NCBI GenBank assembly: GCA_021323945.1
Contig: JAJPKA010000003.1
Coordinates: forward strand, 197,429-261,428
From: Pseudomonadota bacterium
Lineage (GTDB): Bacteria > Desulfobacterota > Binatia > Binatales > Binataceae
Reading direction: 5' to 3'
Length of the DNA stretch: 64,000 nucleotides
Part shown: positions 27 through 8,129 of the stretch, one piece after another
Numbering within the stretch: the first letter of the stretch is position 1
How the letters are laid out: each line of letters opens with the position of its first letter
Program-made: the position numbers and the translations under genes
The notes under the pieces: generated by a model
What the model saw: only the letters and a program-made list of their open reading frames with translations
Told to the model about the DNA's origin: nothing
Database searches by the model: none

Positions 27-776
27 TCAGGTCGGTCTGCGCGCAACACGCGGGCGCCACTGCCAATACGACCGCAGATCAACCGCGAAACTCCAGGCGT
101 TGCGGGGCTGGTTGATCAAATGCACCAGTTCGTCACAAATCGCCTCGGTGGCAACGAAATGATCCGGATCCTCCTCGGGAGCCCCTTCCGTAATCCGTGG
201 CAGCCCCACCGCGCCGTCAACGTCGAGGGTCGCGGCATGCACCCCGCGATGCATGAACTCATAAGCGCAAGATTCGGCGAGAGCCCGTTGGGCAACCTTG
301 GACGCATTATAGGCGGAGTACTGCGCGGGACCGCCTCGGGTCTCCGAACCGAGGATAAAGATAATAGTGCCTGACCCGCGCTCGGCCATTTTGCCGACAA
401 CCGCCTGGGTCGCATAAAAAGGCCCATAACAATTAACTTTCAGCTGGAAATCGAACTCTTCCTCGGTGATCTCAGTAAACGGTTTTCGCAGGTAGGCCCC
501 GGCATTATTGATCAGTACCGAAATCGGCCCAAATTCACGCTCTACCGCTGCGACAGCCGCCAGCACTTGCTCCTTTTTCGAAACGTCAGTCGGTGTGACG
601 AGCGCCTTGCCCCCTTGTCGGCGAATCAGTTCTGCGGTCTCCTCGAGCTGAGACTTGGTGCGTGCTATCAATCCGCAGGCGTAACCCTCGCGGGCCATCC
701 GCTGCGCGATCTCGCGGCCAATTCCTCGCCCGGCGCCCGTGATCAATGCAACTTTGGACTCTGCCATGTCGGGCAT
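27..776 (-). CDS. SDR family NAD(P)-dependent oxidoreductase
   Basis: Classical short-chain dehydrogenase/reductase of about 249 residues, expected to be cytosolic and to interconvert an alcohol and a ketone with NAD(P). The protein shows the cofactor motif TGAGRGIG near the N-terminus, the NNAG motif, and the catalytic YSAYNASK (YxxxK), all at the usual spacing. The longest frame opens with a GTG at 791; ATG codons at 776 and 767 place the first beta strand (KVALITG) closer to the N-terminus, and I chose 776. The gene stands alone on the minus strand ahead of the window edge. The substrate cannot be read from the sequence. Confidence 0.9.
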   Translation of the reverse strand: MPDMAESKVALITGAGRGIGREIAQRMAREGYACGLIARTKSQLEETAELIRRQGGKALVTPTDVSKKEQVLAAVAAVEREFGPISVLINNAGAYLRKPFTEITEEEFDFQLKVNCYGPFYATQAVVGKMAERGSGTIIFILGSETRGGPAQYSAYNASKVAQRALAESCAYEFMHRGVHAATLDVDGAVGLPRITEGAPEEDPDHFVATEAICDELVHLINQPRNAWSFAVDLRSYWQWRPRVARRPT

Positions 777-861
777 CTTAGCGTGAGCCACGCCTTTTCG
801 GAACCGTCGCCGCGCTGTTTTGTCAGCCCAGCAGATAAACCGCTGACGATGGCGCGAGCAG

Positions 862-1578
862 TCATCGCTCGTTGTGAAGGCGATCCCATTCGTCGCCGAC
901 TTCGCAAATACCCTGGTAGAAGAGCTTTTCGCCTATGAGTGCGGAGTCCAATCCGGCAAGAATCTCGGCGCGCTCGACCTCGCTCATCACCTTGCGCGAA
1001 ATAGGTTCCCAGACCTGCGCACCAGCGTGATCCTGATCGGCCTTGAGGTGGTACGTAAAGAAGAATACCTGCTGATCGTTAAGTCCGAAGGTTTTCTTCC
1101 AGGCTTCGGGCATGAAGTTGTTTTGCGGCAGCGTACTCAAGATGAATTCGTCGACGGAGGTGGTGAGCCAGCCGGCGATCCAATGGCGGTTGCGGCAAAC
1201 GTTCTCCCAGACATTGAACGCGGCGTCGACCAGCGGATGAGCTCTGACGGTATCCATTTCGTGATCGGTAAGCCCAATATTGCGACCCATTTGCCGCAGC
1301 AGTGCGGTGTGGCCGGTGCCGATTTGATCGTCCATCACCAACTCCTGCCTGATCTGGCCAATCGTCTTGCGCACGACCTCGAGATCGGGACACCGGCTCA
1401 TCCAAGCCGGACGCAGGACCGAACTCAGCAGGCGATTACGCAAGATGTGCTGGAGCATGTAAGCGCGTCCCCGCCCGGGCGTCAGGGGATCGCAGAACCA
1501 ACTGATTTCCCGACCTGCTTTCAGAGTGCGGTCAGCGATTTCGTCGATTAAGCTCTTCGCTTGCGGTTGTTCGTGCAT
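862..1578 (-). CDS. Heme-oxygenase-like putative di-iron oxidase (PqqC/TENA/CADD-like fold)
   Basis: An all-helical protein of 238 residues resembling the PqqC/TENA/THI-4 and iron-containing redox enzyme families. The C-terminal half has H177-x3-D181-x2-H184 (TYHLKADQDH), the ligand pattern of heme-oxygenase-like di-iron oxidases such as CADD and UndA. Upstream lie D83-x6-H90, where the family normally has E-x6-H, and E125 (VWENV) as a possible third carboxylate. Known members perform oxygen-dependent reactions such as decarboxylation, N-oxygenation or para-aminobenzoate formation; which applies here is unknown. A zinc-ribbon gene lies 70 bases upstream on the same strand, so the two are probably cotranscribed. 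Fold assignment is fairly secure; catalytic class is inference. Confidence 0.7.
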   Translation of the reverse strand: MHEQPQAKSLIDEIADRTLKAGREISWFCDPLTPGRGRAYMLQHILRNRLLSSVLRPAWMSRCPDLEVVRKTIGQIRQELVMDDQIGTGHTALLRQMGRNIGLTDHEMDTVRAHPLVDAAFNVWENVCRNRHWIAGWLTTSVDEFILSTLPQNNFMPEAWKKTFGLNDQQVFFFTYHLKADQDHAGAQVWEPISRKVMSEVERAEILAGLDSALIGEKLFYQGICEVGDEWDRLHNER

Positions 1579-1648
1579 AGGTCCCGCTATTTGTGGGTCG
1601 TTCTCTGGTCACAAGCTGAACGAACGCCGATGCTGGGTGGCGCAATGG

Positions 1649-1912
1649 TCAGGGGTCGCGCTGGGCAATCGAGCGCGCACGTTCGCTTTGATAACCGCAT
1701 TGACAGCCTAACAGCCCTGTCGCGTAAAGCTCCAACTGATCGTTGACGATCCGACGGGCAATTCCCGGTAACAATCTGTCACCGACCGAGCCGAGCGCCC
1801 TACCGCATCTCTCGCATCGCAAACGATAATACGTTCCGTATGTGGCGATGCCCTCAACTTCAATGCCCACGATCGCATAGGCATCGCGAATCTCGTCGAG
1901 GATTGCATTCAT
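1649..1912 (-). CDS. Small zinc-ribbon-like hypothetical protein
   Basis: An 87-residue protein of unknown function. It has C33-x2-C36 (CERCG) and C70-x-C72 (CQCG), which could form one zinc site. A good ribosome-binding sequence (AGGAAAAG) lies about 7 bases before the ATG at 1912, which supports a real gene. It precedes the putative di-iron oxidase on the same strand. It may be a small metal-binding accessory protein, but nothing in the sequence proves this. Confidence 0.6.
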   Translation of the reverse strand: MNAILDEIRDAYAIVGIEVEGIATYGTYYRLRCERCGRALGSVGDRLLPGIARRIVNDQLELYATGLLGCQCGYQSERARSIAQRDP

Positions 1913-1977: not shown

Positions 1978-2814
1978 TCACAGCCGGCTGTCCAGCCTGA
2001 GCCCGAGCAACTCATGGGCGAGGTGAAAGCCAAGATCTTGCACGATCAATCGTTTCCACGGCCGTCGCACAACAGCACTGGTCAAGCGTCTCACGCTCCG
2101 TGGCTTTTTCATTATCTTGTCCGCGATCTCCCACGCTCTCGGCAACAAACGCTCGAGCGGCATCACTTCGTTAACGAGTCCGATCTCCTTGGCGGTATGA
2201 GCGTCGATCTTGTCACTGGTGTAAAGGTAATACGCGGCTCGCTTCAGACCCATCAACTCCTGGAACGTCAAACCCTGCCCGTCACCCGGAACAGCGCCTA
2301 AATCGCCAAAATGGGGATCGAACAGAACTGCATGATCCGCGCATAATGTGATATCGCACAGCAGAGCAAACTCCGTGTGGAACCCGGGCCCGTTGATGCA
2401 AGCGATTGTCGGTATGTCGAGATTGAAGACGAATGCCTCCAAGAGCTTGGTCGCGTCCCAATAGATGTGATCGTAGAAGGCATCCGAGGGCATCTCGGCG
2501 ATCGGTTGCTCGCCCATCGACCGATCAAAACCAGCTATCCAGTGGTCACCAGTTCCGCTAAGGATCAACAGCTCATTGTCGGGATCGTTACCGATATCCA
2601 TCCACAGCTGGGGCCAGTCGTTGTGCACGGCAAGATTGAAGATCAGAGGTCCGCCGTCGGTATGCATCTGGACCTGAAGAATGCCGTTGCGACGCTCCAT
2701 CTTGAAGTGTTTGGCATACTTCTCTTTATATTGGTCGAATCGCGGCCGTGTGACCAATCCCAAGCGCTGTTCGCGCGCCCGCGCATTCGCGCGTTCGTCA
2801 TGTTCCACGCTCAT
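1978..2814 (-). CDS. Enoyl-CoA hydratase/isomerase (crotonase) family protein
   Basis: A crotonase-fold protein of 278 residues with about 40 extra N-terminal residues. The stretch around H146 (GFHTEFALLCDI), D166 (FDPHF) and VPGDG (175-179) resembles 6-oxocamphor hydrolase, in which a His and an Asp at these places serve in carbon-carbon bond cleavage of a cyclic beta-diketone. Ordinary enoyl-CoA hydratases have two glutamates in this area. A GGAGCGAAGAG ribosome site precedes the ATG at 2814. I infer a crotonase that may hydrolyse a C-C bond rather than hydrate an enoyl-CoA; the superfamily is certain, the reaction is not. Confidence 0.8.
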   Translation of the reverse strand: MSVEHDERANARAREQRLGLVTRPRFDQYKEKYAKHFKMERRNGILQVQMHTDGGPLIFNLAVHNDWPQLWMDIGNDPDNELLILSGTGDHWIAGFDRSMGEQPIAEMPSDAFYDHIYWDATKLLEAFVFNLDIPTIACINGPGFHTEFALLCDITLCADHAVLFDPHFGDLGAVPGDGQGLTFQELMGLKRAAYYLYTSDKIDAHTAKEIGLVNEVMPLERLLPRAWEIADKIMKKPRSVRRLTSAVVRRPWKRLIVQDLGFHLAHELLGLRLDSRL

Positions 2815-3347: not shown

Positions 3348-3782
3348 TTATTTGCTTTCCGGAATATCGCGGATAAGGGTCAGGATTGCCAGAAATTCTT
3401 TTGCGGTCAGGGCAGTTCCCAAAAGGCTCAGATGTTCAAGTACCTGAAGTTCCCGTTTGGTCACGTGGTAGCGTGCCAACAGGGCATGGTCCTTGATGAA
3501 CCGCTGCCACGAGGGTGTCGTCTTTTTGGGGGGCTCAGTCTGGTTTGAAGTCAATAAGGCCTTGGCCTCGGGATGAGCCAATACCAGCAGCTCTTGCCGG
3601 TCAAGCCCCAAGGTGTCGGCGAGTCGCGCCACTAACTTGAGCGACGGCTTACGCCGACCACTCTCGATGAATGCCACGTGGCTGGCCTCAACCCCTAATT
3701 TCTGGGCCAGGGAGCGCTGAGTCAATCCGAGAGCCTCCCGGCGAGTCTTCAAAAATTCTCCCAGCTTATTCATCTGCTTCAT
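3348..3782 (-). CDS. XRE family transcriptional regulator
   Basis: A 144-residue DNA-binding protein with an N-terminal helix-turn-helix of the Cro/CI type (residues 7-65). Recognisable pieces are LGEFLKTRREALGLTQ, LAQKLGV and FIESGRRKPS. The C-terminal half, rich in helices, does not match a domain I know. Its ATG overlaps the stop of the upstream metallopeptidase gene by four bases (ATGA), so the two are translationally coupled. It probably represses its own operon or a distant target and may be cleaved by its partner. Confidence 0.9.
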   Translation of the reverse strand: MKQMNKLGEFLKTRREALGLTQRSLAQKLGVEASHVAFIESGRRKPSLKLVARLADTLGLDRQELLVLAHPEAKALLTSNQTEPPKKTTPSWQRFIKDHALLARYHVTKRELQVLEHLSLLGTALTAKEFLAILTLIRDIPESK

Positions 3783-4612
3783 GTGTTGTACTCGTCCAGT
3801 AACGCCCGACGCAGCTTCGCATAATGGACGAGTGCTGCAAGAGCGTGAAATCGTTTTTTAGCTCCGCGAATTTGCATGAAACGGAAGCCATAACGACCAG
3901 CGACGTATTCCAGGAGGCGCGCGAAGGTCGGGTCAGGTAAGCCGCGCTCGCGACCCTCGCTCGACGCCGGGTCGCGAACGCCAAAGAGCGAGCGTGCAAT
4001 CGGGGCCGGAAAGATGCCCAGACTCACCAGCGTATCAGCCGCCAGCTCTCCAGGCTCGGTCAGGTGCTCCTGGAAACCGGTTTGTGACAATAGGTGCGTC
4101 TCGTTCCTTTTACCGAAGATCTCTGCTGTCAAGTGGTGTCCCATTTCATGATCGAGCGCTACTCCTACGACGGCCGGCGGGTGCGCGGTATTCACGAAAA
4201 TCAACGGTCGTTTGCGGATTTCATCGATTCGGTTGAGGTAAAACCCGAGCAGAGCCAAGCCGTCTTTCCAAGGCAGGCTGGCAAACTTGAAATCCACGCC
4301 AAAGGTCGACCAGCGCCGCACGAACTCGTTCGGCGAGACCAGCGTGACCGGATGTCGATTAAGACCCGGCCAGACACGGGCTTTTCCCTCGCGAGCAATC
4401 TCTTTGATCTCCCAACGGCTGAGACAGCGGCGTAGAGCTTGGCCGTAATTCGTGCGAATTAGCCCGTTGACTTCGCGTTCAAGCTCGACGACACCCCCCG
4501 GTTCTTTCCTTTCACTCACACTGGCAGCGGCCGAGATCTCACGTACCAGGCTGAGAAAGCCACCGGTCCGGCGCTCGGCAGCCGAATTTTCTCGACCTAT
4601 GGGTAAGGCCAT
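3779..4612 (-). CDS. ImmA/IrrE-like zinc metallopeptidase
   Basis: A protein of about 277 residues with a zincin signature: HEMGH (in LDHEMGHHL) followed about 33 residues later by EPGELAAD, which can supply the third ligand. This resembles ImmA/IrrE (COG2856), which cleave XRE-type repressors in mobile elements and in the Deinococcus stress response. The frame can open with TTG at 4693, but an ATG at 4612 with GGGGGAAAC just before it is the better start. It is cotranscribed with the XRE gene. The N-terminal 90 residues are unfamiliar. Family assignment rests on motif and gene pairing. Confidence 0.7.
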   Translation of the reverse strand: MALPIGRENSAAERRTGGFLSLVREISAAASVSERKEPGGVVELEREVNGLIRTNYGQALRRCLSRWEIKEIAREGKARVWPGLNRHPVTLVSPNEFVRRWSTFGVDFKFASLPWKDGLALLGFYLNRIDEIRKRPLIFVNTAHPPAVVGVALDHEMGHHLTAEIFGKRNETHLLSQTGFQEHLTEPGELAADTLVSLGIFPAPIARSLFGVRDPASSEGRERGLPDPTFARLLEYVAGRYGFRFMQIRGAKKRFHALAALVHYAKLRRALLDEYNT

Positions 4613-4969
4613 GTTTCCCCCGGGCTTTTGCCCACTGCCCAAGATTACTCCAGTTAACCATCTGAGAGCAAGCCTTTTTTGACTGTCTAGCAAGGACGAC
4701 GAATGCTAAACACAGCACGACATTGCATGCTGGGAGTCACAGTAGCCTAACTTCCTGTAAGCAAGCTTTGCCGCAGGTAACTGGTTATAGATGGATTAAT
4801 CGTAAGACGTCGCTAAATCAGCTAAGCTCGCCCCATGTTTTGGCTCTGCCAGGCAGCGCCACCCCCTCCAACTGTACTCCAGTTCCTCCCTTCTCGCGCC
4901 CCTCCGCTCGATAGCACAGTTCGGGGGAACAACATCTGCAAATGTCATAACGCAGGAGGACATTTTCCT
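4613..4969. other. Intergenic region between divergent genes
   Basis: These 357 bases separate the minus-strand peptidase gene from the plus-strand GNAT-like gene. Both promoters should be here. The segment is AT-richer than its surroundings, but I cannot name a convincing -35/-10 pair, and the frames inside it have no ribosome site. A start-codon choice at 4835 would extend the GNAT-like gene into it, which I reject because of the strong AGGAGGA at 4954-4960. Confidence 0.4.
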
Positions 4970-5683
4970 ATGCAACTTCGTTTACTCACCACCAACGTTG
5001 AGCGCAGCGTCTTTCTGGCACGGCTCGAGCAGGCCCGCGCTCGGCACGGCGCCAGCTTCCGCGAAAATAGCCAATCTCGAGCGCTTAATCAGCGACGGCT
5101 CGAATGCTCTCGGCTTTATGGTTTGTTCGAAAGTGACGGCGCGCCGCCTTCGGCAATGTTGGCAGGCGTGGCGATGCACGACCTTCGGTCCTTCCCTCAG
5201 AGCTGTCCCGAGCCCAATTTGTCGCACTTGCCGCCGGAAACGGTCGCCGAATGCAGCGACCACTGGTCGCTGTCGAATGGAGCCGGCATGGTGGCATGGG
5301 CCGGGCTCGCAGTGCCGATGCGGTTGCTCGGCATCACTACCGTGCTTGCCTATCTGGCGGCAAGCGATGATCAGTGCGCGCATGCCGGCTTCTATCGATT
5401 GATGGGTTTCCAGCCACTCGGACCGAAGGTGCCGCATCCTTTCGTCGAAACTCCAGAGGGCGACAAGCTGATGGTCCAACCTGTGGTGCTGCAGGGCGAT
5501 GCCTTTGACCGCGCGATGAAGGCTTTATCGATTGCCTGCACTGATTATTCTGACGACGCACGCATTTTCGATCTCAAAAATGTGCGCTCGCTGATGCGGT
5601 TGGCATCTGTTCGTCAACGGGAATACGTGTCGGTTACCAAACCAGTAGGTGAGAATGACGCAGTTGAAACCGCTCGCTCATAA
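4970..5683 (+). CDS. GNAT-like / N-acyltransferase-like protein
   Basis: A 237-residue protein with a distant acyltransferase signature: the segment FYRLMGFQPLGP (about residues 142-153) matches the last helix and strand of GNAT folds, and the general layout recalls N-acyl amino acid synthases of the FeeM kind. The acetyl-CoA binding loop (Q/RxxGxG/A) is not obvious, so the donor might be acyl carrier protein. The ATG at 4970 follows AGGAGGA by nine bases. A fatty-acid desaturase starts 51 bases downstream, which would suit a pathway making or modifying an acylated product. Function remains inference. Confidence 0.5.
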   Translation: MQLRLLTTNVERSVFLARLEQARARHGASFRENSQSRALNQRRLECSRLYGLFESDGAPPSAMLAGVAMHDLRSFPQSCPEPNLSHLPPETVAECSDHWSLSNGAGMVAWAGLAVPMRLLGITTVLAYLAASDDQCAHAGFYRLMGFQPLGPKVPHPFVETPEGDKLMVQPVVLQGDAFDRAMKALSIACTDYSDDARIFDLKNVRSLMRLASVRQREYVSVTKPVGENDAVETARS

Positions 5684-6931: not shown

Positions 6932-6992
6932 CTTTTGCGCCGGAACGAAGTCGAAGACCGTGGCTGCCATCGAAGGAGGATCCGAACATTTC

Positions 6993-8129
6993 ATGTCCGA
7001 AGATGTTCAACGCTTTTCAGTTATCACTGAGAAGAGTCTCGCCGAACTGCGCAAACTGATTAATGTGCCAATCGAAGACTCGCTCGAACCCTGGTGCTAC
7101 GAAGCAACCCGCGACAATATCCGGCATTGGGCGCACGGTATCGGTGATGACAATCCACTCTGGTGCGACCCGGATTATGCGGCTCGCACGCCGTATGGAC
7201 GCCTGCTTGCACCGCCGTCGTTTATTTTTACGCTTAACCGTCCCTTCAGTGGATACGTTGGCGGCCTTGCGGGAGTTCACGCGATGTTTGCGGGCATCGA
7301 CGTCACCTGGCACCGACCGATAATGCTCGGGGACCAATTCACAACGCGAGCCTGGCTCAAGGATCTGGTTGAGCATCACACCCGCTTTGCCGGCCGCTCC
7401 ATCCAACAAATCTACCGCTGTGAATTTTATAATCAGCGCAACGAGCTGGTTGCGGAGGGTGATAGCTGGTGCTTCCGCACCGAGCGGGATACGGCGCGCG
7501 AACGCGGGACCAAGTACGAGGAGGTCAAGAAGAAACCGAAAGTCCACTATACACGCGAACAACTGGCGCGGATCTTCAGCTTCTACGAGCGCGAAGAGAT
7601 CCGTGGTGCCCTGCCACGTTACATTGAGGATGTGAAGGTGGGCGACAAGCTGCAGACGATGGTCAAGGGCCCAATGACAGTGACAGGTTTTATCGCTTTT
7701 GCTCAAGGCTGGGGAGGCCTCTACATCCGTGCCAACAAATTGGCCTGGAAGCAGCTCCAGAAACATCCTGGCCTAGGCATTCCGAACAAATTCGGCATAC
7801 CCGATGTGCCCGAGCGCGTCCATTGGGAAGACGATCTCGCCACGCTGGTGGGTACGCCAGCGGCGTACGATTACGGTCCTGAGCGCTGCTCCTGGATGTC
7901 GCATCAGCTTACTAACTGGATGGGGGATCAGGGATTTTTGCGTCGTTTGGAGGTAAAAATTCGACGTCATAACCCCGTGGGAGATACGCTCTACATCGAT
8001 GGCGAGGTGACGCGAATCTTCGAGGAAGATGGCGCGCACTACGTAGAAATTGCCCAGCGCGCGACGAACCAGGACGGCGAATTATCAGTAGTAGCCAATG
8101 GCATCGTGCGTCTGCCGTCCCGCGGCTAG
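6993..8129 (+). CDS. MaoC-like double hotdog hydratase/dehydratase
   Basis: A 378-residue cytosolic protein made of two hotdog domains. The N-terminal domain has the hydratase-2 type motif GDDNPLWCDPDYAART (about residues 50-65) with YGRLLAPPSF after it, typical of FAS1-like dehydratase / MaoC N-terminal regions. The C-terminal half is a second, more divergent copy. Such proteins hydrate or dehydrate CoA or ACP thioesters in fatty-acid, steroid or side-chain degradation. The longest frame begins at 6960, but AAGGAGGA at 6973-6980 points to the ATG at 6993. The gene stands alone between hairpins. Confidence 0.8.
   Translation: MSEDVQRFSVITEKSLAELRKLINVPIEDSLEPWCYEATRDNIRHWAHGIGDDNPLWCDPDYAARTPYGRLLAPPSFIFTLNRPFSGYVGGLAGVHAMFAGIDVTWHRPIMLGDQFTTRAWLKDLVEHHTRFAGRSIQQIYRCEFYNQRNELVAEGDSWCFRTERDTARERGTKYEEVKKKPKVHYTREQLARIFSFYEREEIRGALPRYIEDVKVGDKLQTMVKGPMTVTGFIAFAQGWGGLYIRANKLAWKQLQKHPGLGIPNKFGIPDVPERVHWEDDLATLVGTPAAYDYGPERCSWMSHQLTNWMGDQGFLRRLEVKIRRHNPVGDTLYIDGEVTRIFEEDGAHYVEIAQRATNQDGELSVVANGIVRLPSRG

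Follow-up and report, generated by a model that had tools for sequence, protein, structure and literature searches.

The window, the whole stretch of 64,000 nucleotides that was analyzed (C17:197429-261428), belongs to a 3.74-Mb Binataceae-like MAG (G000; completeness, 95.5%). Four of its genes form a run on the minus strand and encode an enoyl-CoA hydratase/isomerase family protein (ECH), a small cysteine protein (ZR), a heme-oxygenase-like dimetal oxidase (HDO) and a short-chain dehydrogenase (SDR) (Table 1). As these genes share a strand, with gaps of 65 bp (ECH-ZR), 70 bp (ZR-HDO) and 70 bp (HDO-SDR), a single transcript is likely. An earlier note, made from the letters alone, had singled out the two central genes; both reading frames were recovered, together with the D83-x6-H90, E125 and H177-x3-D181-x2-H184 residues that it had listed for the larger protein. 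The two cysteine pairs described for ZR (C33-x2-C36 and C70-x-C72) were also present, and the sequence 5' of its start, AGGAAAAGCGA-ATG, constitutes a fair ribosome site. A 225-aa plus-strand ORF antisense to HDO (874-1551) is regarded as merely incidental to the coding sequence on the other strand. The FAS1-type dehydratase encoded elsewhere in the window possibly acts in the same route as HDO.

Other ORFs were noted between the run and this dehydratase. A fatty-acid-desaturase-family protein (PF00487; 5723-6775, plus strand) resembles GntB-type hydroxylases and matched NF041365 with an E value of 1.3e-38, yet scored 133 bits where the cut-off is 380. A 304-aa minus-strand ORF (3779-4693) with an HEMGH (HExxH) stretch had no Pfam or NCBIfam match and precedes, with a 4-bp overlap, a HTH_31/HTH_3 regulator (3348-3782, minus strand). 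A 282-aa plus-strand ORF (4835-5683) was also without a Pfam or NCBIfam match.

Table 1. Positions of the genes and candidate ligand codons in the window, and of the AMP-ligase gene run found elsewhere
Feature	Position	Strand	Basis or remark
Enoyl-CoA hydratase/isomerase family protein (ECH)	1978..2814	-	PF00378, E 4.5e-22; first gene of the run
ZR, 87-aa CxxC/CxC protein, ATG start	1649..1912	-	ORF; no Pfam or NCBIfam match above cut-off
HDO, 238-aa heme-oxygenase-like dimetal oxidase, ATG start	862..1578	-	PF14518 above cut-off
Short-chain dehydrogenase (SDR)	27..791	-	PF00106, E 6.9e-45; last gene of the run
FAS1-type (MaoC-like) dehydratase	6960..8129	+	PF13452, E 5.6e-20; opposite strand, 5.4 kb from HDO
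E79 codon	1342..1344	-	Probable helix-1 carboxylate ligand (E-x10-H); E 63/63
D83 codon	1330..1332	-	Candidate extra or second-sphere carboxylate; D 61/63
H90 codon	1309..1311	-	Helix-1 His ligand (by conservation); 63/63
E144 codon	1147..1149	-	Likely helix-2 carboxylate ligand; 63/63
H177-x3-D181-x2-H184 codons	1027..1050	-	Helix-3 ligands (by conservation); 63/63 each
AMP-ligase, (ZR), PaaA-like, ArsA-like ATPase run	L111:8126-10701 (G000 contig C15), L082, L083, L084

Family, predicted fold and candidate metal ligands

HDO matched PF14518 with an E value of 6.4e-10 (39.6 bits; cut-off, 28.9). Its relatives in other genomes were 47 to 84% identical over nearly the full length, the nearest named one (84%) coming from a 'Candidatus Binataceae' MAG, and HDO is therefore no chance ORF. 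An AF2 model was produced from 11 sequences (the window and loci L002-L009) and had a pLDDT of 86.3 and a pTM of 0.86, with weaker stretches at residues 1-5 and 81-83 (pLDDT of <50) and 171-190 (about 70 to 74). The predicted model had a heme-oxygenase-like helical fold. The best PDB match with Foldseek was CADD (8va9; E 6.5e-6; TM, 0.70/0.77), while VIA-align placed the TenA-like 4lqx at the top (Z, 22.8; rmsd, 4.3 over 234), with CADD 1rcw next (Z, 20.0; rmsd, 2.4 over 207 aa); CADD, PqqC, BesC, FlcD, HrmI, PolF, UndA and TenA were among the 50 matches listed, at Z values of 15.2 to 22.8. A PDB search with a 25-sequence HDO profile detected 9pj4, a 4-aminobenzoate synthase (2e-19), and 4lqx (3e-15), followed by CADD (~1e-9), PqqC (~1e-8) and BesC (1.7e-6), and the best PDB match of the single HDO sequence was also a 4-aminobenzoate synthase. 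Assignment of the larger protein to the heme-oxygenase-like family was hence borne out by both the PF14518 score and the AF2 fold. HDO genuinely belongs to a known superfamily, its setting is unusual, and it is probably an oxygen-activating metal enzyme of an uncharacterized, expanded HDO subfamily.

The CADD/4-aminobenzoate synthases (1rcw, 8va9 and 9pj4) resembled HDO in predicted fold (VIA Z, 19 to 20; rmsd, 2.4 to 2.5) and share with it the His and carboxylate ligands, including an HxxxDxxH stretch near the C terminus. The two differ in that identity between HDO and CADD was 17 to 19%, in the helix-1 carboxylate-His link, which would be longer in HDO if E79 binds, and in the CoA-enzyme neighbors of HDO. 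Membership of HDO in this family was rejected because its TIGR04305 score, 21.8 bits, lies far below the NCBIfam cut-off of 200.

Candidate ligands were examined in an alignment of 70 rows (25 profile members and 45 ORFs from regions L131-L145), from which 7 rows were dropped (2 short and 5 duplicates) to leave 63 distinct sequences, the window HDO included. E79, H90, W133, E144, H177, D181 and H184 were invariant, and an E-H-E-H-(D/E)-H ligand motif was present with 63/63 at each position. Conservation supported the proposal of H90, H177, D181 and H184 as ligands but not that of E125, a position at which E was found in just 18 of the 63 sequences and G, S, A, M, I, H, F, D or L in the others. 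The invariance of E144 indicates that this residue, not E125, is likely the helix-2 ligand. The position of D83 was D in 61 sequences and Q and R, respectively, in the remaining two, which keep E79 as well. The spacing of E79 and H90 was x10 in 56 sequences, x11 in 5 and x12 in 2, and that of D83 and H90 was correspondingly x6, x7 and x8. The Q or R copies are divergent ones (L142:5451-6167 and L143:5659-6375).

Since residues 81-83 had a pLDDT of <50, E79 and D83 were inseparable by model geometry. The conservation data suggested that E79 is probably the helix-1 carboxylate ligand and D83 an extra carboxylate; if both are bound, which is possible, the site would be of a 3-His/4-carboxylate type. 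Such an extra conserved carboxylate would be a likeness to the SznF-type 3H/4C HDOs, although in SznF the extra Glu is provided by an auxiliary helix (according to the accessible part of PMC13108848), whereas the HDO candidate is separated by a single turn from the principal carboxylate of helix 1. An extra Asp90 beside the helix-1 ligands of MboA binds Fe1 in one chain (accessible part of PMC13185094).

Distribution and gene company of the two proteins

ZR had no Pfam or NCBIfam family above cut-off, and a PDB profile search detected chance-level matches only (best E, 0.65). It is a real gene, as orthologs with 66 to 71% identity were present in four other genomes; C33, C36 and C70 were conserved in all five sequences and C72 in four (F in G005). 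Among 148 genomes of the class, ZR was detected in five (G000, G001, G005, G013 and G025; E <1e-45), and the next matches were partial, with none better than 1.4e-3. It adjoined HDO in G000 and G001 only, both of which belong to the genus of the window. The two genes were on separate contigs in G025, ZR was present without an HDO ortholog in G013 and in the only 53%-complete G005, and HDO was present without ZR in G007 and in 15 genomes of f5, another family of the Binatia. A search of eight further sequence sets (three from f5, four from gammaproteobacteria, and G152, apparently identical to the G103 assembly) detected no ZR, an empty answer that carries little weight. The pairing of ZR and HDO, for which co-occurrence in related genomes had been proposed as a check, recurred in a second genome of the same genus, so that the refuting outcome named in the note (no co-occurrence outside this genome) did not strictly arise, but the two genes were adjacent nowhere else among the 148 genomes. 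ZR is thus a genus-level and mostly local neighbor of HDO and not a fixed partner.

A PaaA-like protein (PF05138) was detected at an identity of at least 71% in the same five of the 148 genomes as ZR, in G001 just as a contig-end fragment of 46 residues, and the next-best match was 37% identical. The gene order in G005, G013 and G025 was AMP-ligase, ZR, PaaA-like protein and ArsA-like ATPase, with a luciferase-like gene preceding the AMP-ligase in G005 and G013. In the genome of the window, the AMP-ligase and PaaA-like genes were found together on contig C15, with <60 bp between them and without ZR; the surroundings of this pair yielded neither an ArsA-like nor a close luciferase-like gene. 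The PaaA-like protein, presumably a diiron enzyme that acts in acyl-CoA catabolism, belongs to a different family from HDO, and with the AMP-ligase forms the company of ZR in three genomes while lying apart from ZR in that of the window. Given this placement and the distribution, the idea that ZR accompanies HDO generally was rejected. Most simply, ZR would have moved into the HDO run in the genus of the window, and a function shared by ZR and HDO is possible. MboA and MboB provide a known example of an HDO with a co-encoded helper, but MboB is an NAD(P)H/flavin/Fe2S2 reductase, whereas ZR has no recognized domain. By eye, distant HDO copies gave the impression of lying near PaaA-like genes.

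HDO orthologs were detected at E <=1e-30 in 19 of the 148 class genomes (G000, G001, G007, G025 and 15 of f5), and a wider profile search at E <=1e-8 had matches in at least 86. The f5 orthologs were about 60 to 69% identical to the window HDO. Nineteen genomes of families f2 and f12 contained 11 to 18 matches each, as lower bounds and with some fragments included; the highest counts were at least 18 in G142 and at least 16 in both G074 and G145. Fourteen of the 15 regions that were read (L131-L145) had two to five HDO copies, and a cupin protein was confirmed beside one tandem pair. The tandems often consisted of a divergent copy beside a typical one, with five copies in L133. Judged from their sequence starts, the other genes of these regions presumably include ones for binding proteins and for UbiD-like and gamma-glutamyltransferase-like proteins.

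The ECH-ZR-HDO-SDR order was kept in G001, with one beta-lactamase-family gene inserted before the SDR; the ECH was 87% identical to that of the window and the SDR, which is cut by the contig end, 91 to 92%. In f5, the run at L049 comprised genes for a MaoC hydratase, an HpcH/HpaI lyase, a thiolase-fold protein with an OB domain (ACP_syn_III_C just below cut-off), a thiolase and HDO, followed by an E/ExxH protein, an SSF sodium symporter, a luciferase-like oxygenase and a FAS1-type dehydratase. A FAS1-type dehydratase with 74 to 76% identity to that of the window was present 1.1 to 3.9 kb from HDO in 6 of the 14 f5 loci read, all six being from genus g27 and some of the other loci being short. 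In G000, a ChsH2-type zinc-ribbon/OB protein and a thiolase are encoded outside the window, 5.8 to 7.6 kb past HDO, and were just 27% identical to their f5 counterparts. HDO genes of Immundisolibacteraceae were accompanied by an opposite-strand luciferase-like gene and Rieske oxygenases, with tandem pairs in L004 and L006. The neighbors included, in G025, an aldehyde dehydrogenase gene and others that by eye resembled hydrogenase-maturation genes, and in G007 an RND-pump-like run and a luciferase-like gene (both by eye), such that the four Binataceae loci differed from one another. A periplasmic-binding-type protein was also among the annotated neighbors. Overall, these neighborhoods look like those of CoA-thioester catabolism.

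An E/ExxH protein that recurs beside the oxidase

In 13 of the 15 f5 loci (the exceptions being G076 and G100), the next downstream gene on the same strand encoded a 258-aa E/ExxH protein, the G099 copy of which is cut by a contig end. These loci represented five of six genera, with 7 of the 13 genomes belonging to one genus. A 275-aa E/ExxH neighbor was detected in three of six gammaproteobacterial loci (L004, L006 and L008, from three genomes); L007 and L009 had none, and L005 stops at a contig edge. An E/ExxH protein was thus present beside HDO in 16 of 25 HDO loci, all 16 being from f5 or the gammaproteobacteria, and none was detected in the four Binataceae genomes with HDO (E <=0.01). Residues E50, E97-xx-H100, E153 and E187-xx-H190 were invariant in all 16 aligned sequences, a pattern that we take to be a ferritin-type diiron motif.

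The f5 and gammaproteobacterial profiles matched each other weakly (E, 0.0022; probability, 13%), but L147, L151, L152 and L153 matched both profiles and thus join the two versions, and the L006 and L008 proteins matched the f5 profile at 7e-4 and 9e-5. Two 258-aa f5 proteins, scanned singly, had no Pfam match, and DUF455 matches were observed in 2 of the 16 members (best, 9.5e-5). An AF2 model of one Immundisolibacteraceae member, from three sequences that were 92 to 95% alike, had a pLDDT of 50. Symerythrin was detected in a PDB profile search with an E value of 0.009, ranked under a coiled-coil geminin match (5e-4). The PaaA-like protein gave no meaningful alignment with either version. No ORF in the 15 regions L131-L145 matched the E/ExxH or PaaA-like profile at 1e-3, and the pairing of HDO with E/ExxH is therefore not general for the superfamily. 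Repeated adjacency to this unnamed protein provides a direct and testable partner hypothesis. One form of it, in which the E/ExxH protein of f5 and Immundisolibacteraceae would be a second diiron protein of another fold, acting with a catabolic HDO branch as a two-cofactor oxygenase, with helix-1 E79 and D83 in a 3-His/4-carboxylate site and with the E/ExxH protein lost or replaced in the family of the window, is speculative and distinctly unlikely.

Candidate role and alternative explanations

The reading that we favor, and consider moderately probable, is that HDO belongs to an uncharacterized subfamily and uses a di-iron or Mn/Fe site for O2-dependent oxidation within a CoA-thioester-type catabolic route. 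Its helical bundle would hold the metals through E79 and H90 of helix 1, E144 of helix 2 and H177, D181 and H184 of helix 3. D83, which follows E79 by one turn, would be a conserved additional carboxylate, making a 3-His/4-carboxylate variant possible. After reduction, the site may, like those of other HDOs, bind O2 to give a peroxo intermediate, and the reaction that we infer is oxidation (hydroxylation, desaturation or cleavage) of a small carboxylic acid or acyl-CoA. Other steps could be performed by the neighboring enoyl-CoA hydratase and short-chain dehydrogenase and perhaps by the FAS1-type dehydratase. No electron-donor gene for HDO was identified. The differing neighbors in G007 and G025, and a FAS1 linkage confined to one genus outside the window, argue against one route shared by all these HDOs. 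About a dozen HDOs have been functionally validated, mainly with fatty- or amino-acid substrates (accessible part of PMC13108848). The invariant but differently spaced ligands, the CoA-thioester and oxygenase setting and the 11 to 18 matches per genome suggest a use of HDO chemistry in carbon catabolism. In the literature searched, mostly open-access papers, no account was found of this subfamily, of the pairing of HDO with an E/ExxH protein, of heme oxygenase in Immundisolibacter or of HDO in connection with Rieske proteins, operons or degradation.

The earlier note read D83-x6-H90 as an Asp in place of the usual Glu of the family, and a true swap of this kind, with E79 being structural, could alter the reactivity of the dimetal site. 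D83 is indeed highly conserved, and when counted back from the His without gaps it matches the leading E of DEE in a 4-aminobenzoate synthase; the profile and single-sequence alignments with 9pj4 likewise put D83, not E79, near its IDEE stretch. However, E79, one helical turn before D83, is the stricter position, the family profile set E79 instead of D83 against the E of 'MDE' preceding ENGYPNH in CADD, and the link to H90 varies in length from either residue. In CADD, E81 and H88 have an x6 spacing. The Glu-His spacing is x2 in MboA (Glu86/His89; accessible part of PMC13185094) and x9 in both FlcD (E181/H191; accessible part of PMC11363339) and DtpC (E143/H153; accessible part of PMC13232832). 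As E79 is invariant and the spacing in the superfamily is not fixed at x6, a swap is doubtful; we regard it as rather unlikely, and the supposed substitution probably reflects a misread motif. A dedicated partnership in which ZR transfers electrons or delivers metal to HDO is very unlikely: the genes are adjacent and codirectional in the window and G001, ZR is present in three of the four HDO-containing Binataceae genomes, and ZR elsewhere lies beside another presumed diiron protein, but the separate contigs of G025, the genomes with one gene and not the other, the gammaproteobacterial loci searched (a weak point) and the replacement of C72 by F in G005 argue against such a partnership.

The two other alternatives concern the role of HDO itself. 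Placement in a natural-product or cofactor (pABA-like) pathway, instead of in catabolism, would agree with the mostly biosynthetic roles of characterized HDOs (accessible part of PMC13108848) and with the 4-aminobenzoate synthase as best PDB sequence match. The TIGR04305 score is against it, as are neighbors that comprise CoA-thioester enzymes, Rieske and luciferase-like oxygenases, a symporter and a periplasmic-binding-type protein, with no assembly-line gene noticed among those annotated (a part of the neighboring ORFs), and we consider a biosynthetic HDO unlikely. A protective, nonmetabolic role resembling that of DtpC, an HDO-domain protein that guards against desiccation stress, is highly improbable, since dtpC is in an operon with a catalase gene (both from the accessible part of PMC13232832), whereas the annotated company of HDO consists of metabolic enzymes.

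Genes for two PF04909 proteins were present just upstream of the ECH-ZR-HDO run in G001, and orthologs of the first were detected at an identity of at least 87% in seven Binataceae genomes, including G000 and G007 (on other contigs). Adjacent PF04909-type pairs were observed near HDO genes at L044:3361-5698 (G001) and L131:5271-7812 (G147) and, by eye among the matches listed, in G074:C6 and G136:C13, with at least one such gene in G054:C53. These pairs recall AibH1/AibH2; compared by eye with the AibH2 ligand set (accessible part of PMC7782822), parts of this set are kept in the first G001 protein and lost in the second.
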